A stretch of DNA of 64,000 nt, from assembly GCF_007005445.1 (NCBI RefSeq), contig NZ_CP041387.1:1054001-1118000 (forward strand). The letters run 5' to 3'. Positions within the stretch are counted from its first letter, which is position 1; each line of letters starts with the position of its first letter. Under the pieces are notes generated by a model. It searched no databases. It saw only the letters and a list, made by a program, of their open reading frames with translations, and had not been told where the DNA came from. Positions 8,485 to 29,527 of this stretch are shown here, in pieces. The translations under genes were made by a program, and so were the position numbers. The stretch comes from Rhodopseudomonas palustris. Its GTDB lineage: Bacteria > Pseudomonadota > Alphaproteobacteria > Rhizobiales > Xanthobacteraceae.

Positions 8485-8506
8485 GTTGCCGGCCACGGCG
8501 GCAACC
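8484..8506. other. Small inverted repeat in the 5' leader of the cyclase gene
   Basis: GGTTGCCG and CGGCAACC form perfect 8-bp arms around a 7-nt loop, 13 nt before the cyclase start codon. It has no U-run, so it could be a leader stem affecting translation or the end of an upstream transcript. No function is shown. Confidence 0.35.
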
Positions 8507-8519
8507 AGGGCTGGGCGGC

Positions 8520-10094: not shown

Positions 10095-10115
10095 CAGGCT
10101 CAAGTCGAGAGACGT

Positions 10116-10200
10116 CGTCATTGCGAGCGAAGCGAAGCAATCCAGAAGCTCCGTGCCCCGCGTCCTGGATTGCTTCGTCGCTGCGCTCCTCGCAATGACG
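10116..10200. repeat. Palindromic intergenic repeat, family A copy 1
   Basis: The element begins CGTCATTGCGAGCGAAGCGA and ends with its near reverse complement CTCCTCGCAATGACG, with inner arms AGCAATCCAG and CTGGATTGCT around a short loop. It fills the gap between the convergent cyclase and glycerate kinase genes, where it could act as a bidirectional terminator or RNA-processing stem. Two further copies lie at 14816-14897 and 18653-18734. Confidence 0.85.
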
Positions 10201-10215
10201 ATAGGGGTGGACGCC

Positions 10216-11496: not shown

Positions 11497-11549
11497 GTGC
11501 CCGTTGTGGCAGGCGCGCCCCGGGCCGGCAAGTGACGGCCGCCTCAGGC

Positions 11550-11650
11550 CGTCATCCCGGGGCGCTCGCGCAGCGAGCGAACCCGGGATCCAGAGGTTCA
11601 GGGCAGTTCGAGATTCCGGGTTCGCCGCTGCGCGGCGCCCCGGAATGACG
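11550..11650. repeat. Palindromic intergenic repeat, family C
   Basis: The element starts CGTCATCCCGGGGCGCTCGC and ends in GGCGCCCCGGAATGACG, so the outer arms are near reverse complements. The inner arms are AACCCGGGATCCAGA and ATTCCGGGTT. It sits upstream of glycerate kinase and downstream of the binding-protein gene. Its end sequences resemble those of the other repeats here (CGTCA...TGACG) but its core differs. Confidence 0.75.
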
Positions 11651-11665
11651 AAGGTGAGGGAGCGA

Positions 11666-12901: not shown

Positions 12902-13120
12902 CAGGGGAAATCCTCGCTGTTGTTGTTGGTCTTGCGGCGCACACGCTGCGCTGCAGCGTTGGCAGTGCAGCGGAGGGTTAGCCGGTTCGGCGCGGTTGCT
13001 CAACCCGCGCAAGTTGCGACGGTTACCAAATTTCGCGGCCATTCCGTCGAATGGAAATAGATGCTGCCGAGGACGTGCGAAAGGCGCAGCGACCCCGCGC
13101 TGCGTCATCGGCGCGTCACG

Positions 13121-14608
13121 CTACGCCACATCCGCCTTCCTCAGATGCGCGGCGACGATTTTCAGGTCGTCGACGAAGCGGGCGTATTCGCGCTCTTTGG
13201 CCTCGGCGTCAGGCAGGCGCAGCAGATACGATGGATGCACCGTCACCAGCACCTGCGGGCCGTCGTCGCGGTCGATCAGATGGCCGCGATTGGCGTTGAT
13301 TGGCGTCACCTTGCCGAGCACGCTCTGCGCCGCGGTGGCGCCCATGGCGACGACCAGCAGCGGCTGCACCGCGGCGAGTTCGCGCTCGTACCATTGCCGG
13401 CACGCCTTGATCTCCGGCGTGTTCGGCTTCTGGTGCAGGCGGATCTTGCCGCGCGGCACGAATTTGAAGTGCTTCACTGCGTTGGTCACATAGGTCTTGC
13501 TGCGGTCGACGCCGGCTTCCGCCAGCGCCCGATCGAGCATCTGCCCGGCCGGGCCGACGAACGGCTTGCCGGCGAGGTCTTCCTTGTCGCCGGGCTGTTC
13601 GCCGACCAGCATCACGGTGGCATGCTGCGGACCTTCGCCGAACACGGTCTGGGTGGCGTCCTTCCACAGGTCGCAGGCGCGGCAATCTTTCGCTTCCTCG
13701 CGCAGATGCGCCAGCGTGTCGGCCTTGGGCTTGGCTCTCGTCATCGGTTGCTCCTGTCGCTGCGGCTTCCTCGGCGCGGTCGCCTCGGCCGCGACCATCG
13801 CGTGCGCCTTGCGCTCGGCGTGTTCGATCAGCGGTTTGATCAGCGCCGCTTCGGGCAGATTGCGCCAATATTTCTTCGGCATCTCGGCCTGCATCGCCTT
13901 GGTCTTCAGCCGCGCCGGATTGAAGATGCTGGCGTAGTAGGTGAGCCAGGTTTGTTCGAGGCGATCCTCCGACGGCGCCATCGCCTTGGTGACGCCGGGC
14001 GTGATCGCAACCCTGTGGCCGTCCCAATGCGCGCAGACGTCGGGCGTCAGGATCGACCATTCCATATCGGCGAAGCGGCGGGCGAAGAACGGCGCGGCCA
14101 GCTCGACGATATGATGCTCGGGTTCGAACCAGGCGACGTAGCGCGACTTCGGCTCGCGGCCGATCTCGCGGAACCGGACGAAGGCGTGCATCTTGTGCTC
14201 GTCGCGCCGCACCGCCTTGGCCATCGCCGAAAGCCGCGCCACGTCGGGATCGGTCGCCACCTGCATCAGCTCGGGATTGGCGCGGAGACGCCACAGCAAC
14301 TGATACAGATATGCGAAGCGCTGCGGATCGCGGTGCAGGATGGCGAGTTGCGCCAGCTCGACGAAGCGGGCGGGGACGTTGAAGGTCTGCGCGGGGGAGG
14401 GCGATTGGGTAAAGTGTGTGAACGGCGCGGCCGTTTCAGCAAAGGCTCCCGCATCCGGCGACAGCCCCGCCGCGTCGAACAGCTCCGGCTCGTCGCCCGT
14501 CACGCTCCAGGTGATATCCGCCGGTGCCACGTCCGCCAGCACCAGCTCCCGCGCCGCCTTGCGCCAGCCGTCGAAATCGGTGTCGCTGTCGAGCCGGATG
14601 CGGTGCAT
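13121..14608 (-). CDS. udgX: UdgX-type uracil-DNA glycosylase with N-terminal DUF4130 domain
   Basis: A 495-residue two-domain repair protein. Residues about 1-270 match the DUF4130/TIGR03915 domain that precedes UdgX in many bacteria. Residues about 300-495 are a uracil-DNA glycosylase of the UdgX group: Fe-S ligands C309xxC312 with Cys403, active-site GEQPGD (336-341), the UdgX-specific loop with His392, and HPSYLLR (458-464). UdgX becomes covalently linked to the abasic site through the loop histidine, protecting uracil-containing single-stranded DNA. Here the loop reads KIRLH rather than the usual KRRIH, keeping the histidine. The radical-SAM gene upstream is its usual partner; an intervening 296-bp gap contains two repeats. 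Confidence 0.9.
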   Translation of the reverse strand: MHRIRLDSDTDFDGWRKAARELVLADVAPADITWSVTGDEPELFDAAGLSPDAGAFAETAAPFTHFTQSPSPAQTFNVPARFVELAQLAILHRDPQRFAYLYQLLWRLRANPELMQVATDPDVARLSAMAKAVRRDEHKMHAFVRFREIGREPKSRYVAWFEPEHHIVELAAPFFARRFADMEWSILTPDVCAHWDGHRVAITPGVTKAMAPSEDRLEQTWLTYYASIFNPARLKTKAMQAEMPKKYWRNLPEAALIKPLIEHAERKAHAMVAAEATAPRKPQRQEQPMTRAKPKADTLAHLREEAKDCRACDLWKDATQTVFGEGPQHATVMLVGEQPGDKEDLAGKPFVGPAGQMLDRALAEAGVDRSKTYVTNAVKHFKFVPRGKIRLHQKPNTPEIKACRQWYERELAAVQPLLVVAMGATAAQSVLGKVTPINANRGHLIDRDDGPQVLVTVHPSYLLRLPDAEAKEREYARFVDDLKIVAAHLRKADVA

Positions 14609-14668
14609 GTGCCTTTGGTTAGCCAACTTGTTAGTTATGCACAGGTCGCGCTTGCAACATGGCACAGC

Positions 14669-14788
14669 CCTCATCCTGAGGAGACTCGGCAAAGCCCGCA
14701 GGGCTTAGCCGAGGCGTCTCGAAGGATGGCCGCAGGTGCGTGGCTCCATCCTTCGAGACGGCTGCTGCGCAGCCTCCTCAGGATGAGG
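14669..14788. repeat. Palindromic intergenic repeat, family B
   Basis: A 120-bp inverted repeat. Outer arms are CCTCATCCTGAGGAG and CTCCTCAGGATGAGG. Inner arms are CGTCTCGAAGGATGG and CCATCCTTCGAGACG, separated by a short spacer. Such long stems would fold into a strong RNA hairpin. It lies between udgX and the radical-SAM gene, next to a family A element. Confidence 0.85.
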
Positions 14789-14815
14789 TCGCGCTTGTAG
14801 CTAATCATCCATCCC

Positions 14816-14897
14816 CGTCATTGCGAGCGAAGCGAAGCAATCCAGCTCAGGGCAAAGTGCTGGATTGTTTCGTCGCTTCGCTGCGCTCGCAATGACG
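14816..14897. repeat. Palindromic intergenic repeat, family A copy 2
   Basis: The sequence repeats copy 1 almost exactly: CGTCATTGCGAGCGAAGCGA, AGCAATCCAG, then CTGGATTGTTTCG and CGCTCGCAATGACG. It ends just before the 3' end of the radical-SAM gene, so it may form that gene's transcript end and separate its expression from udgX. Confidence 0.85.
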
Positions 14898-14904
14898 CTG
14901 ATCG

Positions 14905-16143
14905 TCAAAACCCAAATCCCAACTGCTGCGCCTTCGGCCGAAACCGCTCCGCCAGCCGCGCGCCGTCGAGCTGGTAAGCCGGCGGGCGGTGGTCGGGGAG
15001 AACGATGAACGGCAGCGCCTTGTTCCGTGGGATGTGGAGTTTGGCGAGGTCCGAGCTGCGGATCGCGCTGTTGCGGCGGGTGTCGATGATGCGGTCGACC
15101 GCCTTGCGGCCGAAGCCCGGAATCCGCAGCAATTCCTCGCGGCTGGCGCGGTTGACGTCGAGCGGGAAGCGCTCGCGGTGGCGCAGCGCCCAGGCCAGTT
15201 TCGGATCGATTTCCAGCGACAGCATCCCGGCGGCCGGATCGATGATCTCGCCGGCCTCGAAGCCGTAGAACCGCATCAGCCAGTCGGCCTGGTACAGCCG
15301 ATGTTCGCGCACCAGCGGCGGTGCCTGCAAGGGCAAAGCGCGGCTGGAATCCGGGATCGGGCTGAACGCCGAGTAGTACACCCGCTTCAGATTGTACGAG
15401 CCGTAGAGATTGGCGGACGTGTCGAGGATGGTCTGGTCGGTGGCGGCGTCGGCGCCGACGATCATCTGCGTGCTCTGGCCGGCCGGTGCGAAGCGCGGCG
15501 GCTTGGTCCGCGTCGGGGCTTTCTTCGCTTCGGTCGCTTCATCCAGCTTCAAGCGCAGCCGGCCCATGGTGCGGCGGATGGCGCGGACGTTCTTCTCCGG
15601 CGCCAACTGAGCGAGGCTGGTCTCCTCCGGCACCTCGATGTTGATGCTGAGCCGGTCGGCATAGCGGCCGGCCTTGGCGATCAGCGCGTCGTCGGCTTCC
15701 GGAATCGTCTTCAGATGAATGTAGCCGCGGAAGTGATGCTCCTCCCGGAGGCGCCGCGCCACTTCGACGATCTGCTCCATGGTGTAGTCGGCGCTGCGGA
15801 TGATGCCCGAGGACAGGAACAGCCCCTCGATGTAGTTGCGGCGATAGAAGTCGAGCGTGAGCTGCACCACTTCGTCGACGGTGAAGCGGGCGCGTGGCAC
15901 GTTCGACGACGCACGGTTGACGCAATACAGGCAGTCGTAGGCGCAGGCGTTGGTCAGCAGCACCTTGAGCAGCGAGATGCAGCGGCCGTCCGGCGCATAA
16001 GAATGGCAGATGCCCATGCCGGGCGCGGTCGAGCCGAGCCCCTTGCCGTCCCGACTGTCGCGTTTCTCCGTCCCGCTGGAGGCGCAGGAGGCGTCGTATT
16101 TCGCCGCGTCCGCCAGGATGGCCAGCTTGCGCTGCACGTCCAT
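14905..16143 (-). CDS. Radical SAM protein with helix-hairpin-helix, putative DNA modification/repair enzyme
   Basis: A 412-residue protein of the family usually found beside UdgX (TIGR03916-like). The radical-SAM cluster motif is C67AYDC71LYC74, followed by SSGIIRSADYTMEQIVEVARRL and the barrel strand motifs. The C-terminal region (DVNRASREELLRIPGFGRKAVDRII) is a helix-hairpin-helix that binds DNA. The family is proposed to modify or repair DNA, related in layout to spore photoproduct lyase, but its reaction is not established. It is transcribed divergently from imuA, with a LexA box in the shared 168-bp intergenic region, which suggests SOS control. Confidence 0.88.
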   Translation of the reverse strand: MDVQRKLAILADAAKYDASCASSGTEKRDSRDGKGLGSTAPGMGICHSYAPDGRCISLLKVLLTNACAYDCLYCVNRASSNVPRARFTVDEVVQLTLDFYRRNYIEGLFLSSGIIRSADYTMEQIVEVARRLREEHHFRGYIHLKTIPEADDALIAKAGRYADRLSINIEVPEETSLAQLAPEKNVRAIRRTMGRLRLKLDEATEAKKAPTRTKPPRFAPAGQSTQMIVGADAATDQTILDTSANLYGSYNLKRVYYSAFSPIPDSSRALPLQAPPLVREHRLYQADWLMRFYGFEAGEIIDPAAGMLSLEIDPKLAWALRHRERFPLDVNRASREELLRIPGFGRKAVDRIIDTRRNSAIRSSDLAKLHIPRNKALPFIVLPDHRPPAYQLDGARLAERFRPKAQQLGFGF

Positions 16144-16236
16144 GCTTGGAATCTCCTTGATTCATCTCGCGAAAAAATTTGCCGCAAGACCTCGGTGCGA
16201 TCCCGATTGACTCCGCACCAAGGCAGGGATTTATTA

Positions 16237-16251
16237 GAACATATCATGAAC
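16237..16251. promoter_or_regulatory. LexA (SOS) box between radical-SAM gene and imuA
   Basis: GAAC at 16237-16240 and GAAC at 16248-16251 are separated by exactly 7 nt, a perfect match to the alphaproteobacterial LexA site GAAC-N7-GAAC. It lies 60 nt upstream of the imuA start and 94 nt upstream of the radical-SAM start, in an AT-rich stretch where both promoters should be. LexA control of imuAB-dnaE2 is well established in alphaproteobacteria; control of the leftward gene is inference. Confidence 0.85.
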
Positions 16252-16311
16252 AAATGAGCCGGCAACGGGTTCATCGAATCCGAAAAAACGGCAGCGGAAA
16301 AGGAACGGCGC

Positions 16312-17097
16312 ATGGACAGCGCGCGCCTCGACATGCTTGCGCGCCTGCAGGGCGAAATCGACCGGCTCGAAAGCGGGACGGCGGAGACGCTGCGCCGCGT
16401 GCCGCTCGGCCATGACGACGTCGATGCGGTGCTGCACGGCGGCCTGATGCAGGGCGCGCTGCACGAAGTGTTCTGCGATGGCCACCAGGCCAGCGCTGCG
16501 ACCGGCTTCGTCGCCGGCGTGGCGCAGCGTCTCGCCGAGGCACGTTATCTGTTGTGGATCCGCCAGGATTTTTCCGCGCGCGAGAACGGCGAACTGGCGA
16601 TGGCGGGCCTCGCCGAACTCGGCTTCGACCCGCGCCGCTTGGTGATGGTACGCGCGCACGATGCCGACAGCGCACTCCGCGCCGCCGCCGATGCGCTGGC
16701 CTGCAACGGGCTCGGCGCGGTGATCACCGAACTGTGGGGCGAGACCCGCGCGTTCGATGCCGTCGCCTCGCGCAAACTGACATTGGCGGCGCAGCAGTCC
16801 GGCGTCACCGCGCTGATGCTGCGGATCGCCGCTGCGCCGCAGGCCTCCACGGCAGAGACGCGCTGGGTGGTGCGCGCGGCGCCTTCGCCGCCGATCGAAG
16901 GCTGGGGCGCCCCGGTGCTCGACACCTCGCTTGTTCGCAATCGTCGCGGCCAGACCGGCCGCTGGATCATGGAATGGAATTGTGATGCGTGCCGCTTCCG
17001 TGAACCGCAGGCGTATCCTCGGCCTTTGGCTGCCGAGGCTTTCGACCGATCGGGTCGAACGGGCCTCGCCGCAGGCGAGCACCGGCTCGCCGGCTGA
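16312..17097 (+). CDS. imuA: ImuA, translesion-synthesis accessory protein
   Basis: A 261-residue protein of the ImuA/SulA-related RecA-like family. Recognisable segments are RLDMLARLQGEIDRLE, LHEVFCDGHQASAATGFVAGVAQRL, YLLWIRQDFSARENGEL, LIMVRAHDADSALRAAADAL-type and LGAVITELWG. ImuA works with ImuB and DnaE2 in damage-induced mutagenesis, and is thought to inhibit or remodel RecA filaments. The ATG follows AAGGA at good spacing and lies 60 nt from a perfect LexA box. It is first in the SOS cassette and overlaps imuB by 113 bp, an unusually long overlap. Confidence 0.93.
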   Translation: MDSARLDMLARLQGEIDRLESGTAETLRRVPLGHDDVDAVLHGGLMQGALHEVFCDGHQASAATGFVAGVAQRLAEARYLLWIRQDFSARENGELAMAGLAELGFDPRRLVMVRAHDADSALRAAADALACNGLGAVITELWGETRAFDAVASRKLTLAAQQSGVTALMLRIAAAPQASTAETRWVVRAAPSPPIEGWGAPVLDTSLVRNRRGQTGRWIMEWNCDACRFREPQAYPRPLAAEAFDRSGRTGLAAGEHRLAG

Positions 17098-18586
17098 TGC
17101 TGCGCCTCCGCCGCCGCGTGTCGTCGCCGCCAAGCGCGACAACGCGCTGGTGGTGGTCGCGTGCGATGCGCGCGCGAGCCGTGGCGAGGTGATGCCCGGC
17201 ATGCCGCTCGCCACCGTGCGGGCGATGCATCCGGCGGTCGATGTCATCGATCACGACCCGCACGCCGATGCGGCTCTGCTGAATGCGATTGCCGACTGGT
17301 GCGATCGCTTCACGCCGCTGGTGGCGCTCGACGGCGCCGACGGGCTGCTGCTCGACATCACCGGCTGCGCGCATCTGTTCGGCGACGAGGCCAAGCTGCT
17401 GAACACGCTGACCGCGGCGCTGACGCGGCAGGGCTTTGCGGTCAGCGCTGCGATCGCCGGCACTGCGGTGGCGGCGCGGGCGCTGACCCGCGGCGGCTCC
17501 GGCCTGATCGTCGCGCCGGGCGAAGAGCTGCGCGCGGTGGCGCCGCTGCCGGTGGCGGCGCTGGGCGTCGATGACGCGATCGTACGCGGCCTGCGCCGCG
17601 CCGGGTTCAAGACTGTCGGTGAAGTGCTGGCGCGGCAGCCGACCGAACTCGCCGCAAGGTTCGGCGAAGGCTTCGTCGCGGTGCTGCGCCAAGCGACCGG
17701 CGAAGACGACGCGCCGATCTCGCCGCGGCGGCCGGCACCGGACTATGTGGTCGACAAGAATTTCCCTGAACCGGTTGCCACCACCGAGGTCATTCTGCCG
17801 ACGCTGCTGGCGCTGGCGCGGCTGCTGATCGCCGCGATGGAGCGGAGCGGCAAAGGCGCGCGCCAGCTCACCGCGAGCTTCTTCCGCAGCGACGGCGCGG
17901 TGCGCAGCATCAGCGTCGAAACCGGACAGCCGGTGACGCGGGTCGAGGTGGTGCAGCGCCTGTTCGCCGAGAAGCTCGACGCGCTCGCCGATCCGCTCGA
18001 TCCCGGTTTCGGCTTCGATCTGATCCGGCTCGCCGCCAGCGTCAGCGTGGCGGTGACCCAGGCGCAGCGCGGTTTCGACACCACCGCGCATCAGGCCGAG
18101 GACGTCGCGCTACTGGCCGACACGCTGGCGGCGCGGCTCGGGGCCAAGCGGGTGGTGCGCTATCTGCCGCAGGATACGCATATCCCCGAGCGCGCCGCGC
18201 TCGCCGTACCGGTGCAGCATTGTCCGCCTGAGCCGGGCGATGCGCCGTGGCCGGCGCGGGCCGACGAACCGCCGCTGCGGCCCTTGCGGCTGTTGCAGCC
18301 ACCGGAGCCGATCGAGGTGCTGGCCGGCGTGCCGGACGGTCCGCCGGCGCAGTTCACCTGGCGCCGCGTCACCCACCGCGTCACACGAGCCGAGGGCCCG
18401 GAGCGCATCGCCATGGAATGGTGGCGCGCCGCCGAGCCCGGCCTGACCCGCGATTACTTCCGGATCGAGGACGAGGACGGCGCGCGGTTCTGGCTGTATC
18501 GCGACGGCCTGTACGGCAGCGAGGCGATGCCGGAAGTAGGCGGCAGCGGCCAGCCGCGCTGGTACATGCACGGGCTGTTTGCGTGA
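16985..18586 (+). CDS. imuB: ImuB, Y-family polymerase-like protein without catalytic residues
   Basis: A 533-residue Y-family DNA polymerase homologue that acts as a hub linking ImuA, DnaE2 and the beta clamp rather than as an enzyme. It begins RRRILGLWLPRLSTDRVERA, the ImuB version of the palm start, and at the active-site strand carries ALDGADGLLLDITGC in place of the catalytic SxDE of active enzymes. Later come the little-finger-like region and a C-terminal tail ending ARFWLYRDGLYG, which is conserved in ImuB. The chosen start ATG at 16985 lies inside the 3' end of imuA. It is second in the imuA-imuB-dnaE2 cassette. Confidence 0.92.
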   Translation: MRAASVNRRRILGLWLPRLSTDRVERASPQASTGSPADAAPPPPRVVAAKRDNALVVVACDARASRGEVMPGMPLATVRAMHPAVDVIDHDPHADAALLNAIADWCDRFTPLVALDGADGLLLDITGCAHLFGDEAKLLNTLTAALTRQGFAVSAAIAGTAVAARALTRGGSGLIVAPGEELRAVAPLPVAALGVDDAIVRGLRRAGFKTVGEVLARQPTELAARFGEGFVAVLRQATGEDDAPISPRRPAPDYVVDKNFPEPVATTEVILPTLLALARLLIAAMERSGKGARQLTASFFRSDGAVRSISVETGQPVTRVEVVQRLFAEKLDALADPLDPGFGFDLIRLAASVSVAVTQAQRGFDTTAHQAEDVALLADTLAARLGAKRVVRYLPQDTHIPERAALAVPVQHCPPEPGDAPWPARADEPPLRPLRLLQPPEPIEVLAGVPDGPPAQFTWRRVTHRVTRAEGPERIAMEWWRAAEPGLTRDYFRIEDEDGARFWLYRDGLYGSEAMPEVGGSGQPRWYMHGLFA

Positions 18587-18734: not shown

Positions 18735-18768
18735 AATTCAACTATTGAATTTTAGAACCGAGACGCCA

Positions 18769-21700
18769 ATGAGCGCACCGCGCTACGCCGAGATCGGCGT
18801 CACCACCAATTTCTCGTTTCTCGAAGGCGGCTCGCATCCGCAGGACTATGTCCACGAAGCGAGCCGGCTCGGCCTCGACGCCATCGGCATCGCCGACCGC
18901 AACACGCTGGCCGGCGTGGTGCGCGCCTATGGCGAACTCGACAACGAGGACTTGGCGTATAAGCCCAAGCTGCTGATCGGCGCGCGGCTGTGTTTTGCCG
19001 ACGGCACGCCGGACCTGCTGGCCTATCCGACCGACCGGGCCGCCTACGGCCGTCTCTGCCGCCTGCTCAGCGCCGGCAAGCTCCGCGCCGGGAAGGGCGA
19101 ATGCCATCTGACGTTCGCCGACCTCGAGGCCTTCATCGACGAGGCTTCGGCCCCGATGAATCAGCCTTCGGCTTCCATCCACCAGCTCCCCACCTCGTCA
19201 TGGCCGGGCTCGTCCCGGCCATCCACGCCTTTGCTACGATTGAGTCAGCAAGACGTGGATGCCCGGCACAAGGCCGGGCATGACGGTGGAAAGGTTGCGG
19301 GTCGTCATTCGAAGATATTGCTGGTCGTCATGCCGCCCTATCGCTTCCAGACCAAAGCGATCGCCACCGCGCTCGAACGCCTCACCGCCCTCAACGCCGG
19401 TGCCGTCTGGCTCGGCCTCGCGCCGTATTATCGCGGCGACGACAAGCGGCGGCTCGATCGGCTGCGGCGAATTGCGGTCGCCGCACGGGTGCCGTGCATC
19501 GCCACCAACGACGTACTGTATCATCACGCTTCGCGGCGGGCGCTGCAGGACGTGCTGACCTGCGTGCGCGAAAAGACCACGATCGACAAGGCCGGGCGCC
19601 GGCTCGAAGGCAATGCCGAGCGGCATCTCAAGCCCGCCGCCGAGATGGCGCGGCTGTTCCGTGCCGATCCGGACGCGATCGCCGAGACGCTCAGGTTCGC
19701 GGGTCGCATCGGCTTCACGCTGGACGAACTGAAATATCACTATCCCGACGAGCCGGTGCCGCCCGGCAAGACCGCGCAGGCTCATCTGCGAGACCTCACC
19801 GAGCAGGGCATCCAGCAATATTTCCCGCATGGCATCAGCGACAAGCTGAAGGCCACCATCGACAAGGAGCTGGCGATCATCGAGCGCCGCAGCTACGCGC
19901 ATTATTTCCTCACCGTGCACGACATTGTTCGCTACGCACGGTCGCAGGATATTCTGTGCCAGGGTCGCGGCTCGGCGGCGAATTCGGCCGTCTGCTACGT
20001 GCTCGGCATCACCTGCGTCGATCCGACCGAGATCGACCTGTTGTTCGAGCGCTTCGTCTCCGAGGAGCGCGACGAGCCGCCGGACATCGATGTCGATTTC
20101 GAGCATTCGCGCCGCGAAGAGGTGATGCAGTACATCTATCGCCGCTACGGCCGGCATCGCGCCGCGATCGTCGCCACCGTGATCCATTATCGGCCGCGCT
20201 CGGCGATCCGTGACGTCGGCAAGGCGCTCGGCCTGTCCGAAGACGTCACCGCGGCGCTCGCCGATACGGTGTGGGGAAGCTGGGGCAGGGGCCTCAATGA
20301 GATGCAGGTGAGGCAGGCCGGGCTCGACCCGCACAACCCGATGATCGGCCGCGCGGTCGAACTCGCCACCGAGCTGATCGGCTTTCCGCGGCATCTGTCG
20401 CAGCATGTCGGCGGCTACGTGCTGACGCAAGACCGGCTCGACAGCTACGTGCCGATTGGCAACGCCGCGATGGAGGATCGCACCTTCATCGAATGGGACA
20501 AGGACGACATCGATGCCGTCAAGATGATGAAGGTCGACGTGCTGGCGCTCGGCATGCTGACCTGCATCCGCAAGGGCTTCGACCTGATCGCACAGCACAA
20601 GGGCGTGCGGTTTCGGCTTTCCGACGTCAAGTCGGAGGACGACAACAAAGTCTACAAGATGCTCCAGCGCGGCGAGTCGATCGGCGTATTCCAGGTCGAG
20701 AGCCGGGCGCAGATGAACATGTTGCCGCGGCTGAAACCGAGATGTTTCTACGACCTCGTCATCGAGGTCGCGATCGTGCGGCCGGGCCCGATCCAGGGCG
20801 ACATGGTGCATCCTTACTTAAGGCGGCGAAACGGCCAGGAGCCGGTGGTGTATCCATCGCCGTCCGGCGAGGCCGACAAGGATGAACTGCGTCAGATCCT
20901 CGGCAAGACGCTCGGCGTGCCGCTGTTCCAGGAGCAGGCGATGCGGATCGCGATCGAGGCGGCGCATTTCACGCCCGACGAGGCCAATCAGCTCCGCCGC
21001 GCGATGGCGACGTTTCGCAATGTCGGCACCATCGGCAAGTTCGAAGCCAAGATGGTCGGCAATCTGGTGAAGCGCGGCTACGACGCCACCTTTGCCAAGA
21101 ACTGCTTCGAGCAGATCAAGGGCTTCGGCTCCTACGGCTTTCCGGAAAGCCATGCGGCGAGCTTCGCCAAGCTGGTCTATGTCTCGGCGTGGATGAAGTG
21201 CGAGCATCCCGACGCGTTCTGCTGCGCGCTGCTGAATTCGCAGCCGATGGGGTTCTACGCGCCGGCGCAGATCGTCGGCGATGCGCGAAGTAACAAGGTC
21301 GAGGTGCGCCCGGTCGACGTGTCGTTCAGCGAGGGCCAGTGCACGCTGGAGGAGCGCTGCGGCGAGCATCACGCGGTGCGGCTCGGTTTCCGCATGATCG
21401 ACGGATTCCGCTGGGCCGATCCGGACGAGGAGCGGGGGCGGCTCGAAGCCGGCGAGGCGCCGAGCGACGATTGGGCGGCGCGGATCGTCGCGGCGCGGGC
21501 GCGGGCGCGGGGGCCGTTCGGCTCGCTCGAACAGTTCGCGCGGATCACGGCGCTGCCGAAGCGCGCGCTGATCCTGCTGGCTGATGCCGACGCGTTCCGA
21601 TCGCTCGGGCTCGATCGCCGCGCCGCGCTGTGGGCGGTGCGACGCCTGCCCGACGACGTACCGCTGCCGCTGTTCGAGGCGGCGAGCGCGCGCGAGCAGC

Positions 21701-22314
21701 AGGACGAGCACGCCGCGCCGCTCCCCGTGATGCCGATGGCCGAGCACGTGGTGGCCGATTATCAGACGGTGCGGCTGTCGCTGAAGGGCCACCCGATGGA
21801 ATTTCTGCGCGCGCTGTTCGCGGCCGAGCGGGTGGTGAGCTGCCGCGAGGTGTCGGAGTCGCGGCGCAACGGCCGGCGCGTGCGCTGCGCCGGCGTGGTG
21901 CTGGTGCGGCAGCGGCCGGGCTCGGCCAGCGGCGTGATTTTCATGACCATCGAGGACGAGACCGGCATCGCCAACATCGTGGTGTGGCCGTCGGTGATGG
22001 AGCGCTTCCGTAAAGAGGTGATGGGCGCCCGGCTGATCCTGGTCGAAGGCGCGATCCAGGCGAGCCCGGAAGGCGTGGTACATCTGGTCGCCGAGCGGTT
22101 GATCGATCGCAGCCACGAGATGGCGCGGCTGGCCGAAGGCCTCGCCCGCCCGGCGCTACCGGACGGCGCCGACTTCTACGAGCAACTGACCTCCGAGAAG
22201 CGCGGCTATGAAGCCCTCAACGGCGACCGCCGCGACACCCCCGACGCCCCCGCCCAACGCCATCGCCACCCCCGCGACGTCCGCATCCTGCCGCCGTCGC
22301 GGGATTTTCATTGA
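18769..22314 (+). CDS. dnaE2: Error-prone DNA polymerase III alpha subunit DnaE2 (ImuC)
   Basis: An 1,181-residue C-family polymerase performing damage-induced mutagenic synthesis with ImuA and ImuB. It has the N-terminal PHP domain (YAEIGVTTNFSFLEGGSHP), the palm with PPDIDVDFEHSRREEV and GRGSAANSAVCYVLGI, the KGFGSYGFPESHAASFA segment, and a C-terminal OB-fold (GSASGVIFMTIEDETGIANI). The ATG at 18769 was chosen; a TTG 24 nt earlier is also possible. Residues about 143-172 are encoded by an in-frame palindromic repeat (19196-19285), inside a 50-60 residue stretch with no DnaE2 character between FADLEAFIDE and ILLVVMPPYRF of the PHP domain. The frame stays open across it, so a functional protein is likely. 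Confidence 0.95.
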   Translation: MSAPRYAEIGVTTNFSFLEGGSHPQDYVHEASRLGLDAIGIADRNTLAGVVRAYGELDNEDLAYKPKLLIGARLCFADGTPDLLAYPTDRAAYGRLCRLLSAGKLRAGKGECHLTFADLEAFIDEASAPMNQPSASIHQLPTSSWPGSSRPSTPLLRLSQQDVDARHKAGHDGGKVAGRHSKILLVVMPPYRFQTKAIATALERLTALNAGAVWLGLAPYYRGDDKRRLDRLRRIAVAARVPCIATNDVLYHHASRRALQDVLTCVREKTTIDKAGRRLEGNAERHLKPAAEMARLFRADPDAIAETLRFAGRIGFTLDELKYHYPDEPVPPGKTAQAHLRDLTEQGIQQYFPHGISDKLKATIDKELAIIERRSYAHYFLTVHDIVRYARSQDILCQGRGSAANSAVCYVLGITCVDPTEIDLLFERFVSEERDEPPDIDVDFEHSRREEVMQYIYRRYGRHRAAIVATVIHYRPRSAIRDVGKALGLSEDVTAALADTVWGSWGRGLNEMQVRQAGLDPHNPMIGRAVELATELIGFPRHLSQHVGGYVLTQDRLDSYVPIGNAAMEDRTFIEWDKDDIDAVKMMKVDVLALGMLTCIRKGFDLIAQHKGVRFRLSDVKSEDDNKVYKMLQRGESIGVFQVESRAQMNMLPRLKPRCFYDLVIEVAIVRPGPIQGDMVHPYLRRRNGQEPVVYPSPSGEADKDELRQILGKTLGVPLFQEQAMRIAIEAAHFTPDEANQLRRAMATFRNVGTIGKFEAKMVGNLVKRGYDATFAKNCFEQIKGFGSYGFPESHAASFAKLVYVSAWMKCEHPDAFCCALLNSQPMGFYAPAQIVGDARSNKVEVRPVDVSFSEGQCTLEERCGEHHAVRLGFRMIDGFRWADPDEERGRLEAGEAPSDDWAARIVAARARARGPFGSLEQFARITALPKRALILLADADAFRSLGLDRRAALWAVRRLPDDVPLPLFEAASAREQQDEHAAPLPVMPMAEHVVADYQTVRLSLKGHPMEFLRALFAAERVVSCREVSESRRNGRRVRCAGVVLVRQRPGSASGVIFMTIEDETGIANIVVWPSVMERFRKEVMGARLILVEGAIQASPEGVVHLVAERLIDRSHEMARLAEGLARPALPDGADFYEQLTSEKRGYEALNGDRRDTPDAPAQRHRHPRDVRILPPSRDFH
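19196..19285. repeat. 90-bp palindromic repeat (family D) inserted in frame in dnaE2
   Basis: CGTCATGGCCGGGCTCGTCC, then CGGCCATCCACG, is followed after a short loop by the reverse-complement arms CGTGGATGCCCGGC and GGCCGGGCATGACG. The element ends with the same CGTCA...TGACG termini as the intergenic families. It is 90 bp, a multiple of three with no stop in the used frame, so it adds 30 codons to DnaE2. A degenerate relative lies at 34862-34958. Confidence 0.85.
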
Positions 22315-22503
22315 GAAGGGCGCAGTGCCGCTTATGACCCGAAGCGGACTCAAACGGGAGCGGGAGTTGGTCACACTCGACGCGCCGTTCCGAGGCGGAA
22401 CGTACCAAAAAAGGGAGCACTGTGCTGGGGTCCGAACGCCTTCTGCTTTTCATTCTGGCGATGCAACGCGCGGCCCACCAATAAACGATAGGCTCCGAGG
22501 ACT

Positions 22504-25500
22504 TCAGCCCCGCGCCTGCACCTCGGCAATTTCCGGTAGAAGCGCCACAGCTTCAGGAGCGCCGAAATCGGCAAGTTGGCTTGCGAGGCGCCGGAAACGC
22601 TGGACGGCAGCGAGACGATCGGATGCCGAGGTCGCACTCCAGATTGTCGCCAGTAGCTGGCCGCAACGGCGTCCTGCTCCGCTCCGCAGACGCTCCCGAA
22701 GGTCCGAAGCGATATGCGCCGTCATGATTTGCTCCAGCCAGCCGAGCGCGGGATCGGGACTGAACGCGGCCGGCGCCTGAGCGACCAGAGCAGAAACCAC
22801 CGGTGGCGCCACCTCGAAGGCCGCACAAGCCTCGACCCATTCGGCGATGAGTGGCGCAAAACTAGCAGCGTGTGGCCAGTTTGGTTCGAAGACCGGCCAA
22901 TTATAACAACAGAAGCCAGCTGCGGCGAGGGCCTCTGAGCGTCGATATTCGTGTTGCGCTTTCAGGCCGTCGAAGACAATGGACACGCCCGCCCGCCAAA
23001 CGGCCGCGAATGCCTCATCGACCGGCTTATTCGAATTGAACAGCCGTGTGGCATGGGCGTTTAGAAATGCTTCGAGGACCGTCATACGCGTTTCCTCGGA
23101 TTCGATCGCTGCAATCGGACGTAAGAGGTCGGCGATGGCGCGTTCGGGAGGCACCGAATAAGCAATCTGGCCCATCAACGCGCCAAGCGATTGCTCCCAG
23201 TCCATCCGCCGGTCATCGGTATCCCAACTGCCCTTCGGGGGCTGTTGTCCGTCGACGAACGAGCGTAACCATTCGATCGCGGCATGGGCAAAGCGGCACA
23301 ACCGCTCGCGCAAGTCCGGGACCGCGAGAAATGGAGAAAGGTCGAACTGGCGCAAAATCGACGCTGCGCGATAGGTGTCGAACTGCCAATCGACATCGCC
23401 ATGGGGATAGAAGCTCTGACTCGCCGCGACGAACGGCGCCGGAATTGGCGGAGGCACAGGCATATTTGCGACGTCGTTATTGGTCAGGCGATCGGCAATG
23501 GCTACGACCGCCCGCTCGGCACGCGCCGCCCGGTCGTCGCGCAGCCATTGTTCAAGGTCTGCGCCCCATTGGCGCCAACTGAACAAGAAACTGTCGGCGA
23601 GTGCAGTAAGACCCGCTGCAGCGGCCAGGGGCCGATGTTCCGCGAACGGAGCAATCCCTTCTATGCTCGCTTTGGCCACGTCACGAAACGGGCTCGATAC
23701 GAGCCTCAGCCACAACTCGGTCTCGTGAGGCTCGGCGATGCCGCGTCCGACCAGCGCCGCGAGGCCGCGTCCGGCATTCGCGAGAGGATCGTCCGCCATC
23801 GTCGTTTCTTCATAGTGTATTCCCGTCGTCCAGGGATCGAGCGAGGCAGCACGTGCAACAACTGATCGCGCCCACGCTCTATGCTCAGCAAGCAGCGCAT
23901 CATCGCCTCCCGCGAGCAGTGACGCGGCAATCGCTGCGACTGCCTGCGCGCGCATAATTAGCTCTAAGTCGAAACTCATGCTGTCGAAGAGCTGCGGGCA
24001 ATCGAGGCTGATTGCTAGCGGAATGGCGTCAGTGATGGGTGTCCCGTCAGTCGATACAATGCCGCGTGAGCGGCCGAATGACCAGTCGAGCAAGGGGTTG
24101 GTGGCGTTGAGCGCTTGCTGCCGCTCACCGACCTCGGCGGCGCGTGCCTGTAGATGCTCAGGAACGACATAGTGCATGGCGAACCAGCTACGATCCTCGG
24201 CGACCTGTAGCTGCCAGTTGTCGGGATCGGCCTGCGATCGATAGGTTTTGAGACGTTCGGCCAACTCGCCGTCTTCATCCTCAAGTGCCTCCTCGAAGTC
24301 GGCGAGATCAGCAATCTGCCAGTTCGCCGCTGCGGCGGCGAACGCCGCCTTGCTCGCCTCGTCTCCGAACACATGGAGTTGCGCAACGAGCCCCTGGAGT
24401 AGCGGTGGTTGCCGTCGGCGGCGCTCAAGTAGCGCCATGACGTCGGCGCGATTGTCTTCGTCCCCAGGCGTCCAGCCGATGCCATAGGCTGTGGCGCGCT
24501 CATCCTCCATCCAGCGCGCGAGATCGTAGAACCAGAGCCGCGGTGAGCACATCAGGGGCAGCATTACGGTAAGGTCTGCTCGCACCTTGTTGCGGTCTAT
24601 ACCGGCGGCAATCACGGGTCCGGCGATGGCCACCAGCGGCCCCGCGCGGAGTGTCTTCGCAACCATCTCGGCGAGCGGGCGACCAGATGCGACTTGGGCT
24701 GCAAGCCATTGATCGGTAGCGAGCAGCAACGAGGTCAAGATATGCGGGCCAAGCACCCCGCGCGACCATTTAAACACGTGCTGGTCGCCCCAGAGTTCGA
24801 TCGACCCATCCGGCAATTCAAGCCGTATCGGTCGTGGCGTGAGCCCGCGCTGCTGCTGCTTTAAGCACCATTGCTTGCTGGCGACACGACAGAATTGACC
24901 AAGCAGTCCGAGCGCCGCATCCTCATCTGTTGCGAACAACGCGTCGAACCCCGCTCGGCCAGGCGCACTTGGAAAAAGTCCCGCAGTATCGCGCAAGCCA
25001 TAGCCGTGCGTGATGGCAAGGTCGGTGTCGAAGGGCTCATCGCAGCGCTCGTCGATCATCGTCTGAGCGACAAGATCGGCGAACAAACCCGGCTCGAGGC
25101 GCGGCAGGATGCCCGGCGAGACGACGACGGACTCGGCATGACGAATGCAGGTGGTCAGTAGACGTTCGAGATATGTGCGCGCCACATCGGGCGCCGCATC
25201 TGAGCCATGTGTCACGACGAGGCGTAGAAACGCCGCCGGATCGCGGTCATCGTCATCGAGCCCCAGCTCTGCGAGGCAACGATCGCGTTCTTCACGTTGG
25301 TCCCAGCTCAATTCCTCGGCTGCATCGGCCGCTGCAAGCCATTGGCCAACCTGCACAACGGCATGACGGCTAATCTGCCAGCGATGAACGGGTCGCCTGA
25401 GCCAGAATAAAGTGAGCCGGCTCAATATTGGAGCTAGGCTCTGCGGCCAAGTGGGCCAGCGCTCGACCGACCAGGACATAAAGGCCGGCCAAGTCGGCCA

Positions 25501-27609
25501 GCGCGGCACCTGATGACGCTGGGCAAGCGCGGCCCGTGTTACGGCATCGGCTTCGGGATATGCTGTACCGGCGAGGATCTCGGGATGCGGCTGCAGCTCG
25601 AAGCTGGTGAGCGTGTCGGCAATCTCGCGCATCAGGGCGGCGTTGTCGGCGAGCAACTCAGGTTCGATCCGATCGAGCAGCGTGTGGGCGCGCGGCGAGG
25701 CGAGCGGGGCGACTAGAACCTGCCGCGCCCAGACTGGATCGAGATCCGGATCGTCGCGCAATTGCGCATGGAGCGTACGCCATGCCGCGGCACCTTCGGC
25801 GTCGACCGCGATTTCGGCAACGAGGCGGACAGCGCGCAACCAAGCCAGCGGTTGACGCGCTGATTTCAGCAGAGACGGCAAGGCTGAGCGCTGCGCATCG
25901 AGCGCCCGGGCGATCGCCCAGTCCTCGTAGATGTCATGCGTGAAATGCACGACATCACGATAGGGCGGTTCGGCAAGTGTGCCCTCCGATACGAGCGCTG
26001 TGAGGCCAAGAGCAATCCCACCCTTCGGCAGACCTCCAAAAGGCTGACCGAGGCGCGCCCGGGCAAGGGTTCGCAGCGCCGTGTCGCGATGGGGATCGGG
26101 CGGCGATGCCACGCTGCCGCGCGTGGCCCAGGCCTGCATCAGGTCGAGTTCGGAGGACGCCCCGGCCTGCGAGGGCCGAGCCGCGATCTGTGCGATGAAG
26201 AAGAGGTTTCTGTTGAGTTCGCCATAGCCCTGTCGCGTCAGCATCGTCTGCAGGTGCGGGAACCGTTCGCCAAGGAGGCGCAACTCACCAGGAACCGGCG
26301 CGTTGACGGCGAACCGCAGGAGGTCCGGCAGGTTGGCGAGGGCAGCGACGTCGGGGCCGGCCATGTCGCGCGACGAAACAAGGAAACGCCATCTTGCTGC
26401 AGTCGGCGAGCGCGCGATAGCCGCCAGCAAATCATTGAGGATACCAACGGACTGGCTGTCCTGAATGCGATCGAGCCCGTCGATCACCAGCAGAGCTTCG
26501 CCGGAAACCGCAAGCGCTTCAATTAGCTCCGGTAGATCGGTGGAGAGTTGCAGACTCGCCCCGTAAGCGGACCAAGTCGCCGCCGAGAGTCGGTCATGTT
26601 TGAGCACGATCCGACCGTGCCCCCGATCCGCGGCCTCCTCGGCGAGGCGTTTGAGGATAGCTGACTTGCCGCTGCCTGCAGCGCCGCCGAGACGAATATT
26701 CTTGCCCTCCGCGAGCTGTCTGGACAGTTGCGTCGTGGGATCGGCGCGAGGGAGCCGAAAACCAAGGATATCATCGCGAATGCTGGCCAGCGCCAGTTCG
26801 GCCTCCCGGTCTAGTCTGGCAAGACAGGGTGCAAGATGTTCCGACGCTGAGAGCGAAAAGCGATCGGCAAGTTCGAGCGCGAGAATCGATCGATCAAGTG
26901 CCCCCGCCACGCGCGCCGCGTCGGCGGCGATATGCTCGAGCTCCCGCAACAAGTCGGAAGCTGACGCGGGATCAGACAGGGCGCGCTCAAGGTTTCGCAA
27001 CGCCCAGTGCTCGTGCAGCGATCCCGCTTCCTCGATATCGGCAACGATGAGCGAGAACCGCTTGAGCAGTTCCCAGGCAAGCGATGGGTCCGGGCAGTCG
27101 AACTCATCCTCGATCACCCATGCCACAGCTTCGGCAAAGGCACGCTCGCCCGCATTGGCCGCAGCAGGTTCGGCCCAGCGGTGCCAGAAATCCTCTGAAC
27201 TGAGTGACAGTCGGGCTGCAAGCGCGGTGCGTTCGGCGTCGCGCGGGCCAAACCCGCTCTGTCCGGTCACGATCCTGAACCGATGCGTGTCGGCCGGATT
27301 GGCTCGAATGTGGCGTGCTGCTTCTGCGATCGGACGTTTGAAAGCCGGATCGCTGCGCTCACCGCTCAAGGTGCGCTTAATTTGGATAACGGTAGCGCGG
27401 GTGCCGCCTCCCGGCAGGCGGTGGCGGACGATGGCATCGTCGAAGCCCGCTACCGCGCCGGAGCGTTGCAGTTCGATATTCTCGATCACCAGGCCGGCAC
27501 CGTCGCCGAGCGCGGCGGCTTCGCCGAGGAGCGCCGCCAGCAGACATGCCACCGCCCGAGATTCAAAGGTCGTGCCGGCACCGCTCGTGCCGATCACCGT
27601 GCGGGACAC
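22504..27609 (-). CDS. Avs-like STAND NTPase with N-terminal PD-(D/E)xK nuclease region (candidate antiphage protein)
   Basis: A 1,701-residue protein. Residues about 12-120 resemble Cap4/Mrr-type nucleases (TTFESRAVACLLAALLGE, GFDD with Asp57/58, then VIQIK with Gln76 and Lys78). A STAND/NACHT-type NTPase follows: Walker A GAAGSGKS (309-316), Walker B ALLVIDGLDRI (Asp377, Asp380) and RFLVSSRD (408-415). About 1,100 further residues, mostly helical and without catalytic motifs, would be the sensor. This order and size match Avs antiphage proteins, in which phage-protein binding triggers tetramerisation and DNA cleavage. GTG 27609 was chosen for its GGAGG 7 nt upstream; a GTG at 27642 would add 11 residues. 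It stands alone, opposite in strand to its neighbours, and looks acquired. The antiphage role is inference. Confidence 0.8.
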   Translation of the reverse strand: MSRTVIGTSGAGTTFESRAVACLLAALLGEAAALGDGAGLVIENIELQRSGAVAGFDDAIVRHRLPGGGTRATVIQIKRTLSGERSDPAFKRPIAEAARHIRANPADTHRFRIVTGQSGFGPRDAERTALAARLSLSSEDFWHRWAEPAAANAGERAFAEAVAWVIEDEFDCPDPSLAWELLKRFSLIVADIEEAGSLHEHWALRNLERALSDPASASDLLRELEHIAADAARVAGALDRSILALELADRFSLSASEHLAPCLARLDREAELALASIRDDILGFRLPRADPTTQLSRQLAEGKNIRLGGAAGSGKSAILKRLAEEAADRGHGRIVLKHDRLSAATWSAYGASLQLSTDLPELIEALAVSGEALLVIDGLDRIQDSQSVGILNDLLAAIARSPTAARWRFLVSSRDMAGPDVAALANLPDLLRFAVNAPVPGELRLLGERFPHLQTMLTRQGYGELNRNLFFIAQIAARPSQAGASSELDLMQAWATRGSVASPPDPHRDTALRTLARARLGQPFGGLPKGGIALGLTALVSEGTLAEPPYRDVVHFTHDIYEDWAIARALDAQRSALPSLLKSARQPLAWLRAVRLVAEIAVDAEGAAAWRTLHAQLRDDPDLDPVWARQVLVAPLASPRAHTLLDRIEPELLADNAALMREIADTLTSFELQPHPEILAGTAYPEADAVTRAALAQRHQVPRWPTWPAFMSWSVERWPTWPQSLAPILSRLTLFWLRRPVHRWQISRHAVVQVGQWLAAADAAEELSWDQREERDRCLAELGLDDDDRDPAAFLRLVVTHGSDAAPDVARTYLERLLTTCIRHAESVVVSPGILPRLEPGLFADLVAQTMIDERCDEPFDTDLAITHGYGLRDTAGLFPSAPGRAGFDALFATDEDAALGLLGQFCRVASKQWCLKQQQRGLTPRPIRLELPDGSIELWGDQHVFKWSRGVLGPHILTSLLLATDQWLAAQVASGRPLAEMVAKTLRAGPLVAIAGPVIAAGIDRNKVRADLTVMLPLMCSPRLWFYDLARWMEDERATAYGIGWTPGDEDNRADVMALLERRRRQPPLLQGLVAQLHVFGDEASKAAFAAAAANWQIADLADFEEALEDEDGELAERLKTYRSQADPDNWQLQVAEDRSWFAMHYVVPEHLQARAAEVGERQQALNATNPLLDWSFGRSRGIVSTDGTPITDAIPLAISLDCPQLFDSMSFDLELIMRAQAVAAIAASLLAGGDDALLAEHRAWARSVVARAASLDPWTTGIHYEETTMADDPLANAGRGLAALVGRGIAEPHETELWLRLVSSPFRDVAKASIEGIAPFAEHRPLAAAAGLTALADSFLFSWRQWGADLEQWLRDDRAARAERAVVAIADRLTNNDVANMPVPPPIPAPFVAASQSFYPHGDVDWQFDTYRAASILRQFDLSPFLAVPDLRERLCRFAHAAIEWLRSFVDGQQPPKGSWDTDDRRMDWEQSLGALMGQIAYSVPPERAIADLLRPIAAIESEETRMTVLEAFLNAHATRLFNSNKPVDEAFAAVWRAGVSIVFDGLKAQHEYRRSEALAAAGFCCYNWPVFEPNWPHAASFAPLIAEWVEACAAFEVAPPVVSALVAQAPAAFSPDPALGWLEQIMTAHIASDLRERLRSGAGRRCGQLLATIWSATSASDRLAAVQRFRRLASQLADFGAPEAVALLPEIAEVQARG

Positions 27610-28129
27610 CTCTGCGCCTCCGTCTTCATCTGTGAAGCGCACTTTCTATGCGGTTCTAGCTGCATGGCAATCTCAAAAAAAAGATGGACCAATCTCCTCA
27701 TCTTACATTTGGCTCTACGCAAAATGCCTGGCGCGGGCGCGCTGGAAGAGCGGCAAACTTGGATAGATGCGACGGTGCGAGCTGCTGATTTGGCTATCGT
27801 GCAAATGTCGATAGCATTTCAGGTTGTGTGCGAATCTACAACATCAAGCTGTCAAAAACCGAGCGATCATCGATCTCCTTAATCCTTGAACCGGTGATCA
27901 GAGCCAACGCACAGACAATTTCGCAATGTCCACTTCTGCCCCTTTGCAGACATGGTCGGTTTCCATGCTTCGCCGCCAAGCACCAAGATCTTCGCGCCCT
28001 TCTCGCCTTGATGGAAGTTCTATCATGAAGATGTCCCTCTCTATGCTATCCGAAGAGGGGCGCGTGAGGCGTCTTGGTGTGGGGCAAATCGATCGGCTGG
28101 GTGACCAGCCGGAGAATTCGGCTGAGTCA
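27610..28129. other. AT-richer intergenic flank of the STAND gene
   Basis: This 520-bp stretch holds no gene I can support. It is visibly lower in GC than its surroundings (for example CAATCTCAAAAAAAAGATGG near 27670) and contains the STAND gene promoter region and the leader of the CoA-transferase gene. A short inverted repeat lies at 27926-27953 (ATGTC ... GACAT around CCCC-rich sequence), reminiscent of a common non-coding repeat in this bacterial group that yields spurious small ORFs. No tRNA, integrase or att-like direct repeat was seen. Confidence 0.5.
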
Positions 28130-29527
28130 ATGCAATCTCCCCGCGACCTGCTTGCTGATCTCTGGACCTCCGTCGGCGCCGACCCCGCCGCGCTGGAGCA
28201 TGTCACGCTCACCGGAGACGAGCCGCAATTGCCGTCGTCGTTTCGCGTCGATGCGGCGGCGCAGGTGGCGATTGCGGCGAGCGGGCTGGCGGCGGCGGAG
28301 ATCTGGGCGATGCGGAGCGGACAGGCGCAGGGCGTCAGCGTCGGCATCCGCCATGCTGCGATCGAGTGCCGCTCCGAGCGCTACTTGCGCCGCAACGACG
28401 AGGCGCCGGCCTCGTTCTGGGATCCGATCGCCGGCGTGTATCAGGTGAAGGACGGCCGCTATGTCCGGCTGCACACCAACTTCCCGCATCACCGCGACGC
28501 CGTCTGCCAGGTGCTGGATTGCCCGCCGGAGCGGGAGGCGGTGCAGGCGGCGCTGCTGCACTGGGACGGCGAGGCGTTCGAGACCGCGGCGTACGCGGCC
28601 GGCGGCGTGGTGGCGCTGATGCGATCCCGCGAGGAGTGGCAGGCGCTGCCGCAGGCCGCTGCGCTCGATGCGTTGCCGCTGGTCGAGATCAGCAGGATCG
28701 GCGAGGCGGCGCCGAAGCCGTGGCCTGAAGGTAGCCGACCGCTCGCGGGCCTGCGTGTGCTCGATCTGTCGCGGGTGATCGCCGGGCCGGTGGCCGGCCG
28801 CACGCTCGCGGCGCACGGCGCCGACGTCATGCTGGTCTCGAGCCCGAAGCTGCCGTCGATCCCGTGGCTGGTGATCGACACCGGTCGCGGCAAGCTGTCG
28901 AGCTTCGCCGATCTCACCACCCAGGAGGGCCATGCCTCCTTACGTGAGCTGCTGAGCGAGGCCGACATCTTCAGCCAGGGCTATCGCCCGCGCGCGCTGG
29001 CGGCGCTCGGCTTCTCGCCGGAAGAAGCCGCCGCGATCAATCCGGGCGTCGTCTACGTCTCACTGTCCGCCTACGGACGGTTCGGCCCGTGGGCGGAGCG
29101 GCGCGGTTTCGACTCCCTGGTGCAATGCGTAACCGGCTTCAACCATGCCGAGGGGCAGGCGGCGGGCGTAACCGGCCCGAAGGAGTTGCCGATGCAGATA
29201 CTCGATCACGCCACCGGCTATCTGATGGCGTTCGGCGCGATGATCGCCAAAGCACGCCAAGCGCGTGAGGGCGGCAGTTGGCACGTCCAGGTGTCGCTGG
29301 CGCGCACCGGCAAATGGCTGTGGGAGATGGGACGGCTGCCGCACGGTCTGGCCACGCCCGAGATCACTCCGGAGGTGGCGGCGCCGTATCTCGATCAGGT
29401 CGAATCCGGCTTCGGGACACTGCGCGCGGTGCGCCACGCTGCGATCCTGAGCGCGACCCCGGCGGCCTGGAGTCGTCCGTCGGTGCCGCTCGGCACCGAC
29501 GCGCCGGTCTGGCCGGCAAGCTGGTGA
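28130..29527 (+). CDS. CaiB/BaiF-family (type III) CoA-transferase
   Basis: A 465-residue cytosolic enzyme that would move CoA between carboxylic acids. The second half carries the family core: LAGLRVLDLSRVIAGPVAGRTLAAHGADV, then VVYVSLSAYGRFGPWAERRGFDSLVQ, whose Asp in RRGFD corresponds to the catalytic aspartate, and QILDHATGYLMAFGAM. The first half is a weaker CaiB-like segment (RHAAIECRSERYL, DGRYVRLHTNFPHHRD), as in long two-part members. ATG 28130 is the best start on sequence grounds, but no close ribosome binding site is seen. Substrate unknown. It is the first gene past the putative defence insert. Confidence 0.85.
   Translation: MQSPRDLLADLWTSVGADPAALEHVTLTGDEPQLPSSFRVDAAAQVAIAASGLAAAEIWAMRSGQAQGVSVGIRHAAIECRSERYLRRNDEAPASFWDPIAGVYQVKDGRYVRLHTNFPHHRDAVCQVLDCPPEREAVQAALLHWDGEAFETAAYAAGGVVALMRSREEWQALPQAAALDALPLVEISRIGEAAPKPWPEGSRPLAGLRVLDLSRVIAGPVAGRTLAAHGADVMLVSSPKLPSIPWLVIDTGRGKLSSFADLTTQEGHASLRELLSEADIFSQGYRPRALAALGFSPEEAAAINPGVVYVSLSAYGRFGPWAERRGFDSLVQCVTGFNHAEGQAAGVTGPKELPMQILDHATGYLMAFGAMIAKARQAREGGSWHVQVSLARTGKWLWEMGRLPHGLATPEITPEVAAPYLDQVESGFGTLRAVRHAAILSATPAAWSRPSVPLGTDAPVWPASW

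Follow-up and report, generated by a model that had tools for sequence, protein, structure and literature searches.

We analyzed a 64,000-nucleotide stretch of Rhodopseudomonas palustris DNA (NZ_CP041387.1, positions 1,054,001 to 1,118,000; hereafter the window) and identified in it a gene that probably encodes a single-gene antiphage STAND receptor, in which an N-terminal PD-(D/E)xK nuclease of the Cap4/DUF4297 class is combined with a C-terminal sensor of the Avs4 class (Table 1). The protein looks like a re-armed form of a known immune receptor and not like a new kind of system. The intact open reading frame (ORF), the predicted folds, the homology of the C-terminus to Avs4, the conserved motifs and the sporadic, foreign-looking distribution support this reading directly, and by analogy with known Avs proteins the product would oligomerize, act on DNA and serve in defence.

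Reading frame and domain architecture

The mechanically called ORF comprises 1,712 amino acids, that is, 11 codons more upstream than the GTG at position 27609. This GTG aligns with the methionine of the seven closest homologues and follows a ribosome-binding site. Because homologues span most of the length at 24-89% identity, the frame is not due to chance. The GC content of the gene is 0.635, compared with 0.665 for the window minus 22315-28128, and its GC content at third codon positions (GC3) is 0.68, compared with 0.82-0.89 in four neighbouring genes. A first-pass annotation, made from the letters alone, had described a single 1,701-residue protein in AT-richer DNA, with an acidic pair at Asp57/58, QIK at 76-78, a Walker A motif at 309-316 and a Walker B motif at 372-382, which contains Asp377/Gly378; all of these hold.

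The middle of the protein showed an NLR core fold with a Walker A and an hhhhDG Walker B motif, and residues 256-620 aligned with Avs4 at an E-value of 5.7e-23, which identifies an Avs4-homologous STAND NTPase. The Pfam NACHT score was 26.3 bits, just under the gathering cut-off of 26.7. At the N-terminus, the AF2 model of residues 8-251 matched the nuclease domains of Cap4, HerA-DUF (DUF4297) and LmuA in the structural comparison (VIA), giving the PD-(D/E)xK fold of the Cap4/DUF4297 class. The active site of this nuclease class consists of an acidic pair and a QxK motif, and both are found here. In a 39-row alignment, with 38 rows covering the region, Gln76 is present in all 38 and Lys78 in 34, the other four having threonine. 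While fold and motif are common to Cap4, HerA-DUF and LmuA, the nuclease is here fused to a NACHT module and an Avs4-type sensor, whereas the usual partners of these nucleases are a SAVED domain (Cap4), HerA and the Lamassu complex. The comparison of separate parts that the first-pass annotation had proposed thus placed the N-terminus with Cap4-class nucleases and the middle with NLR cores.

For the C-terminus, hhalign of residues 621-1150 alone gave an E-value of 8.5e-18 against Avs4, compared with 0.2 against the PADLOC candidate family PDC-M54A and 0.67 against Avs2-like proteins (profiles of two sequences each for the latter two). The C-terminal model matched Avs4 (PDB 8dgf) up to model residue 1136 of 1142, the distal part included (VIA). 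Both profile and structure therefore indicate an Avs4-homologous sensor. The first-pass annotation had matched the C-terminus to none of Avs1-4 and had read the protein as an Avs-like antiphage nuclease-STAND with a different sensor; the architecture stands, but the sensor is of the Avs4 type with a distal part diverged in sequence, and a wholly new sensor is rejected on these matches. With Avs2, only the STAND NTPase was seen to be common; the C-terminus gave an E-value of 0.8 against two Avs2-like proteins, whose own genomic matches fall below the NCBIfam cut-off. The structures 8dgc (Avs3) and 9jap (Avs5) matched the N-terminal model at residues 4-490 and 262-477, respectively, and were not among the 50 matches listed for the C-terminal model, from which no exclusion follows. 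An Avs5 model gave no match at an E-value of 1e-100 in 299 genomes of the phylum, and likewise none in control genomes. The match of 8dgf to the model of residues 1-690 had a root-mean-square deviation of 18.6 Å and was set aside as evidence.

Table 1. Coordinates of the gene, its predicted parts, its surroundings and related loci (window positions unless a locus is named).
Feature	Position	Strand	Remark
Coding sequence, nuclease-STAND-sensor protein	22504..27609	-	1,701 aa, GTG start, stop-free translation
Ribosome-binding site GGAGG	27617..27621	-	7 nt before GTG, read in sequence
N-terminal Cap4/DUF4297-class nuclease domain + helical extension, residues 8-251 (predicted)	26857..27588	-	AF2 model, VIA matches, profile match
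Asp57-Asp58, predicted metal-binding acidic pair	27436..27441	-	in 38/38 rows having the region
Gln76-x-Lys78 (Gln76-Ile77-Lys78 here), predicted catalytic QxK	27376..27384	-	alignment
NACHT NTPase + winged-helix/helical part (NLR core), residues 256-673	25591..26844	-	
Walker A GAAGSGKS, residues 309-316	26662..26685	-	G309, G312, G314, K315 the same in all 39 rows, S316 in nearly all
Walker B region hhhhDGxD, residues 372-382	26464..26496	-	D377, G378 invariant in 16 rows
HDIYEDW motif, residues 558-564	25918..25938	-	HDIYEEW in Avs4
Proximal Avs4-class sensor, residues 621-1150	24160..25749	-	hhalign
Distal sensor, residues 1151-1701	22507..24159	-	sequence diverged from Avs4, yet within structural-match range
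dnaE2 (error-prone DNA polymerase)	18745..22314	+	Pfam; in 16/16 genus genomes
CoA-transferase family III ORF	27926..29527	+	Pfam; congener-conserved from about 28130
Stretch without blastn match in any of 17 fetched congener stretches	22350..27927		blastn of 21901-28600
Recurring dnaE2 3'-end pieces	L122:3656-3757 (G004), L123:4246-4350 (G015), L125:2126-2199 (G010)		blastn
STAND proteins of Avs4 class with GYSGSP N-terminus	L046:9293-14413, L020:9302-14407, five more		alignment A5
Near-identical block, 11.1-11.6 kb, 97.7-98.7% identical	L011:9664-21271, L015:9693-20807, L016:1204-12813		Sphingomonas, Aureimonas, Erythrobacter records

Relation to known systems

Avs4 (AVAST type 4), whose portal ligand we read in the title of PDB 8dgf, an entry with four Avs4 chains, has in common with this protein the NACHT module, the HDIYE(E/D)W motif and the overall sensor fold along the length. 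It differs in its N-terminal effector, which is Mrr-like: residues 1-255 matched Avs4 at an E-value of only 0.9 and at an unrelated position, and are thus non-homologous to it by profile. By contrast, the N-terminus is related to that of PDC-M54A (profile E-value of 2.3e-5), and the PDC-M54A profile match covers nuclease and NACHT together (columns 14-645, E-value of 5.2e-23), whereas the C-terminal sensor is unrelated by profile. The PADLOC scan, another check named in the first-pass annotation, likewise returned PDC-M54A at 8.5e-13, confined to residues 107-414 and therefore not a full-length match. On sequence comparison the family appears as a mosaic, its nuclease and NACHT common with PDC-M54A and its NACHT and sensor common with Avs4. 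In a NACHT tree the family forms one group (94/92), placed beside PDC-M54A with weak support (81/54); the tree has one long-branch row and 25 rows of unlike letter make-up. Since that placement is weakly supported, we do not claim a direction for the swap.

A further combination occurs in Bacteroidota records. These proteins (alignment A5) have the NACHT module and an Avs4-class sensor in common with ours (columns 261-1211, E-value of 2.8e-44) and carry an N-terminal GYSGSP signature, presumably trypsin-like, where this protein has its nuclease; the two tested scored 552 and 588 bits against NCBIfam Avs4. Fusions of trypsin-like proteases to Avs proteins are known, according to a portion of PMC12799240. 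The literature search, at the level of listings and with the founding Avs paper (doi 10.1126/science.abm4096) outside it, met no paper on such a fusion of a DUF4297-class nuclease with an Avs-type receptor, and the term PDC-M54 was found in no paper.

Distribution of relatives

A search of a large protein set gave 11 matches at an E-value of 0.001 or below, namely the query, seven proteins with 63-89% identity and three with 43, 26 and 24%, and a profile search gave 41 at 1e-10 or below, overlapping in part with those 11. Scanning one genome per species yielded 78 distinct loci. Fifteen of them (L004-L018) match beyond the NACHT and winged-helix part, around which the remainder mainly match; the nuclease domain is included in all but L010. 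The match is near-full-length in L004-L009, L011-L013, L015 and L016 and partial in L010, L014, L017 and L018. Thirteen of the 15 carry alphaproteobacterial record titles, the other two being Mycobacterium sp. and Terriglobia.

Within the genus the gene was found in none of 15 congeners; counting its own genome, it occurs in 2 of 101 near relatives and, at the level of the order, in 8 of 397 genomes. For each genome these searches scored no more than a few first-look candidates, so weak relatives could have been overlooked. Among 72,556 plasmid records, 13 matched at an E-value of 1e-10, and in one of these the match spanned 80% or more of the protein. None of 50,697 phage records matched, and of 60 pattern matches in viral contigs none was confirmed as a relative, so that the gene as phage cargo is rejected.

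The chromosomal site

The gene is antiparallel to both of its neighbours, dnaE2 and the CoA-transferase ORF, a placement on which Pfam and the first-pass annotation agree. A relative of the CoA-transferase is present in all 16 genus genomes, with only a partial match in G009. By blastn, congener homology breaks off no more than about 35 bp from the dnaE2 stop codon and is fully back near 28130; some congener stretches also match at the edges, 22315-22349 and 27928-28129, six of them in parts of the latter. Both flanks could be read on one contig in 12 of the 15 congeners, and distances worked out by hand showed 147-295 bp between them in four and about 1.3-24 kb of other DNA in eight; in the remaining three the flanks lie on different contigs or one is partial. 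We regard the dnaE2 junction as a variable junction. Seven ORFs of the inserts were scanned with Pfam, giving one with pentapeptide repeats, one ParD antitoxin and five without a match. A dedicated defence hotspot at this junction is unsupported within the scope of that scan, which covered these seven of the insert ORFs and did not include PADLOC; the gene itself is in no congener. Horizontal acquisition of the gene fits the data: the distribution is sporadic, the stretch at the site is unmatched and GC3 is atypical.

Two further observations concern dnaE2. In three congeners the inserts contain, a few kb further downstream, second copies of parts of its 3' end, about 75-105 bp long and 86-96% identical to the window sequence; this looks like repeated insertion of elements at the dnaE2 3' end. 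At the junction in the window itself, a search for a copy of this kind found none. In addition, window 19189-19293 (dnaE2 residues about 149-183) has dozens of other protein-level matches in genus genomes and looks palindromic. It is apparently a dispersed repeat inserted in frame, and blastn found no second copy in the window.

Neighbourhoods of the relatives

We sampled ten neighbour ORFs at six of the 15 relative loci (L004, L005, L006, L008, L012 and L015), picked mostly by size and position. Three ORFs at three loci had PADLOC matches at 1e-6 or better: a NACHT protein beside L004 with an N-terminal match to a CBASS-type endonuclease effector, an LmuB-like protein beside L005 and an OLD/GajA-like ATPase beside L012. 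Matches of such SMC- and OLD-type ATPases (L005, L012) spread over many families and do not fix the system. Pfam named a serine recombinase (L008), a RES domain (L015), a SEC-C motif (L004) and an EamA transporter domain (L006), and gave no match for three further ORFs. The SEC-C protein was rejected as a conserved partner, because convincing alignment between the two examples was limited to the short SEC-C end. Of two plasmid relatives, one adjoins an AbiEii/AbiGii gene and one sits between IS66 transposase genes. In the latter setting, on the Azospirillum oryzae plasmid (L149), the relative (7989-13196) is followed by a very large hypothetical ORF (13314-17978), and IS66 transposase genes flank the pair.

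Threonine replaces Lys78 in L011, L014, L015 and L016. In L011, L015 and L016 an ORF of 483 residues overlaps the stop end of the STAND gene by 4 nt; the copy scanned, that of L015, contains a RES domain (PF08808, E-value of 4e-19). The next ORF, of 1,073-1,087 residues, had no Pfam or PADLOC match in L015, and L014 showed no clear RES partner. Since the three loci lie in a nearly identical block (Table 1), they count as one recent lineage and not as three separate events, and the association of the lost lysine with the RES gene has that single lineage as its basis.

Proposed mechanism and alternative explanations

According to the excerpted text of PMC12931631, recognition of terminase, portal or Ksap1 leads Avs1-4 to cut the DNA of both phage and host as nucleases, and Avs5 senses JADA; a portion of PMC11249213 states that the portals recognized by Avs have little sequence in common. 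By analogy, the helical superstructure of the C-terminus would bind a conserved phage packaging protein, and by comparison with Avs4 we lean slightly towards the portal. Binding of this ligand together with ATP would cause oligomerization through the NACHT module, which would bring the nuclease domains together and switch on DNA cleavage. Phage and host DNA would then be cut, resulting in abortive infection.

Several points weigh against this interpretation. The NCBIfam Avs4 model (NF041815) scored 44.1 bits, far below its cut-off of 1,500, and identity to Avs4 in the profile alignment is 14%. No Pfam nuclease model was found for the protein up to an E-value of 1; on two true Avs4 proteins, Pfam left the N-terminal nuclease unnamed at 0.001. 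Nuclease activity is probably not universal across the family, because the QxK lysine is missing in the four threonine rows. The two flanking genes, the window neighbours that were scanned, are not defence genes by Pfam. Given that the score cut-off and the N-terminal effector comparison both failed, we file the protein as Avs4-like and not as Avs4 proper. Residues 1151-1701 alone gave an hhalign E-value of 0.021 against Avs4, which is not significant, and therefore ligand specificity may differ from that of Avs4. It is accordingly possible, if on balance unlikely, that the same architecture recognizes through this distal part a non-portal phage protein such as a terminase or an early protein, as would suit the variety of proteins sensed by other Avs receptors (terminase, portal, Ksap1, and JADA for Avs5; PMC12931631, in part). 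However, the C-terminal model matches Avs4 nearly end to end, distal part included, and the proximal sensor is strongly Avs4-like.

Membership in PDC-M54A would explain the PADLOC hit and the profile match over nuclease and NACHT. Yet the hit is confined to part of the protein, and residues 621-1701 do not match PDC-M54A (E-value of 0.28, two-sequence profile) while they match Avs4; this improbable reading, already disfavoured, is rejected on the C-terminus. An intact defence gene that is inactive in this genome is less probable still: a scan of 22200-28300 found no sigma-70-like promoter, where 1.1 would be expected by chance and other promoter types were outside the scan, but the 1,701-codon frame is open, the ribosome-binding site is good and the predicted active-site residues are all intact. 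That the protein is a STAND regulator or housekeeping protein without a role in phage defence seems very improbable, even though both neighbours are ordinary chromosomal genes and its function is predicted. A housekeeping gene is rejected on its absence from 15 of 15 congeners, the strict conservation that would have told against defence in the first-pass annotation not being seen when the dnaE2-CoA-transferase junction was compared, and the atypical GC3, the conserved nuclease motif, the Avs4-type sensor and the PADLOC matches beside three of the six relative loci scanned all argue against a regulator. An Avs4-like nuclease receptor remains our preferred explanation.

Significance

With this protein, the Avs4 sensor class reaches into a lineage whose loci are alphaproteobacterial by title in 13 of 15 cases and which the curated Avs4 model, judged by this protein, misses widely. 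The same sensor fold is joined here to a non-homologous nuclease, which makes it possible to test cleanly if bacterial NLR-like receptors allow the effector to be separated from ligand recognition. The degenerate nuclease site with its RES-domain partner offers a natural experiment in effector replacement. More speculatively, and we regard this as rather doubtful, the Avs4-class sensor may have changed weapons repeatedly, the main lineage using the Cap4/DUF4297 nuclease and the lysine-less sublineage a trans-acting RES-domain protein encoded by the 4-nt-overlapping gene, and with the distal sensor retuned to a non-portal phage protein. If this is true, then the STAND scaffold would be a sensor that licenses separate toxins.
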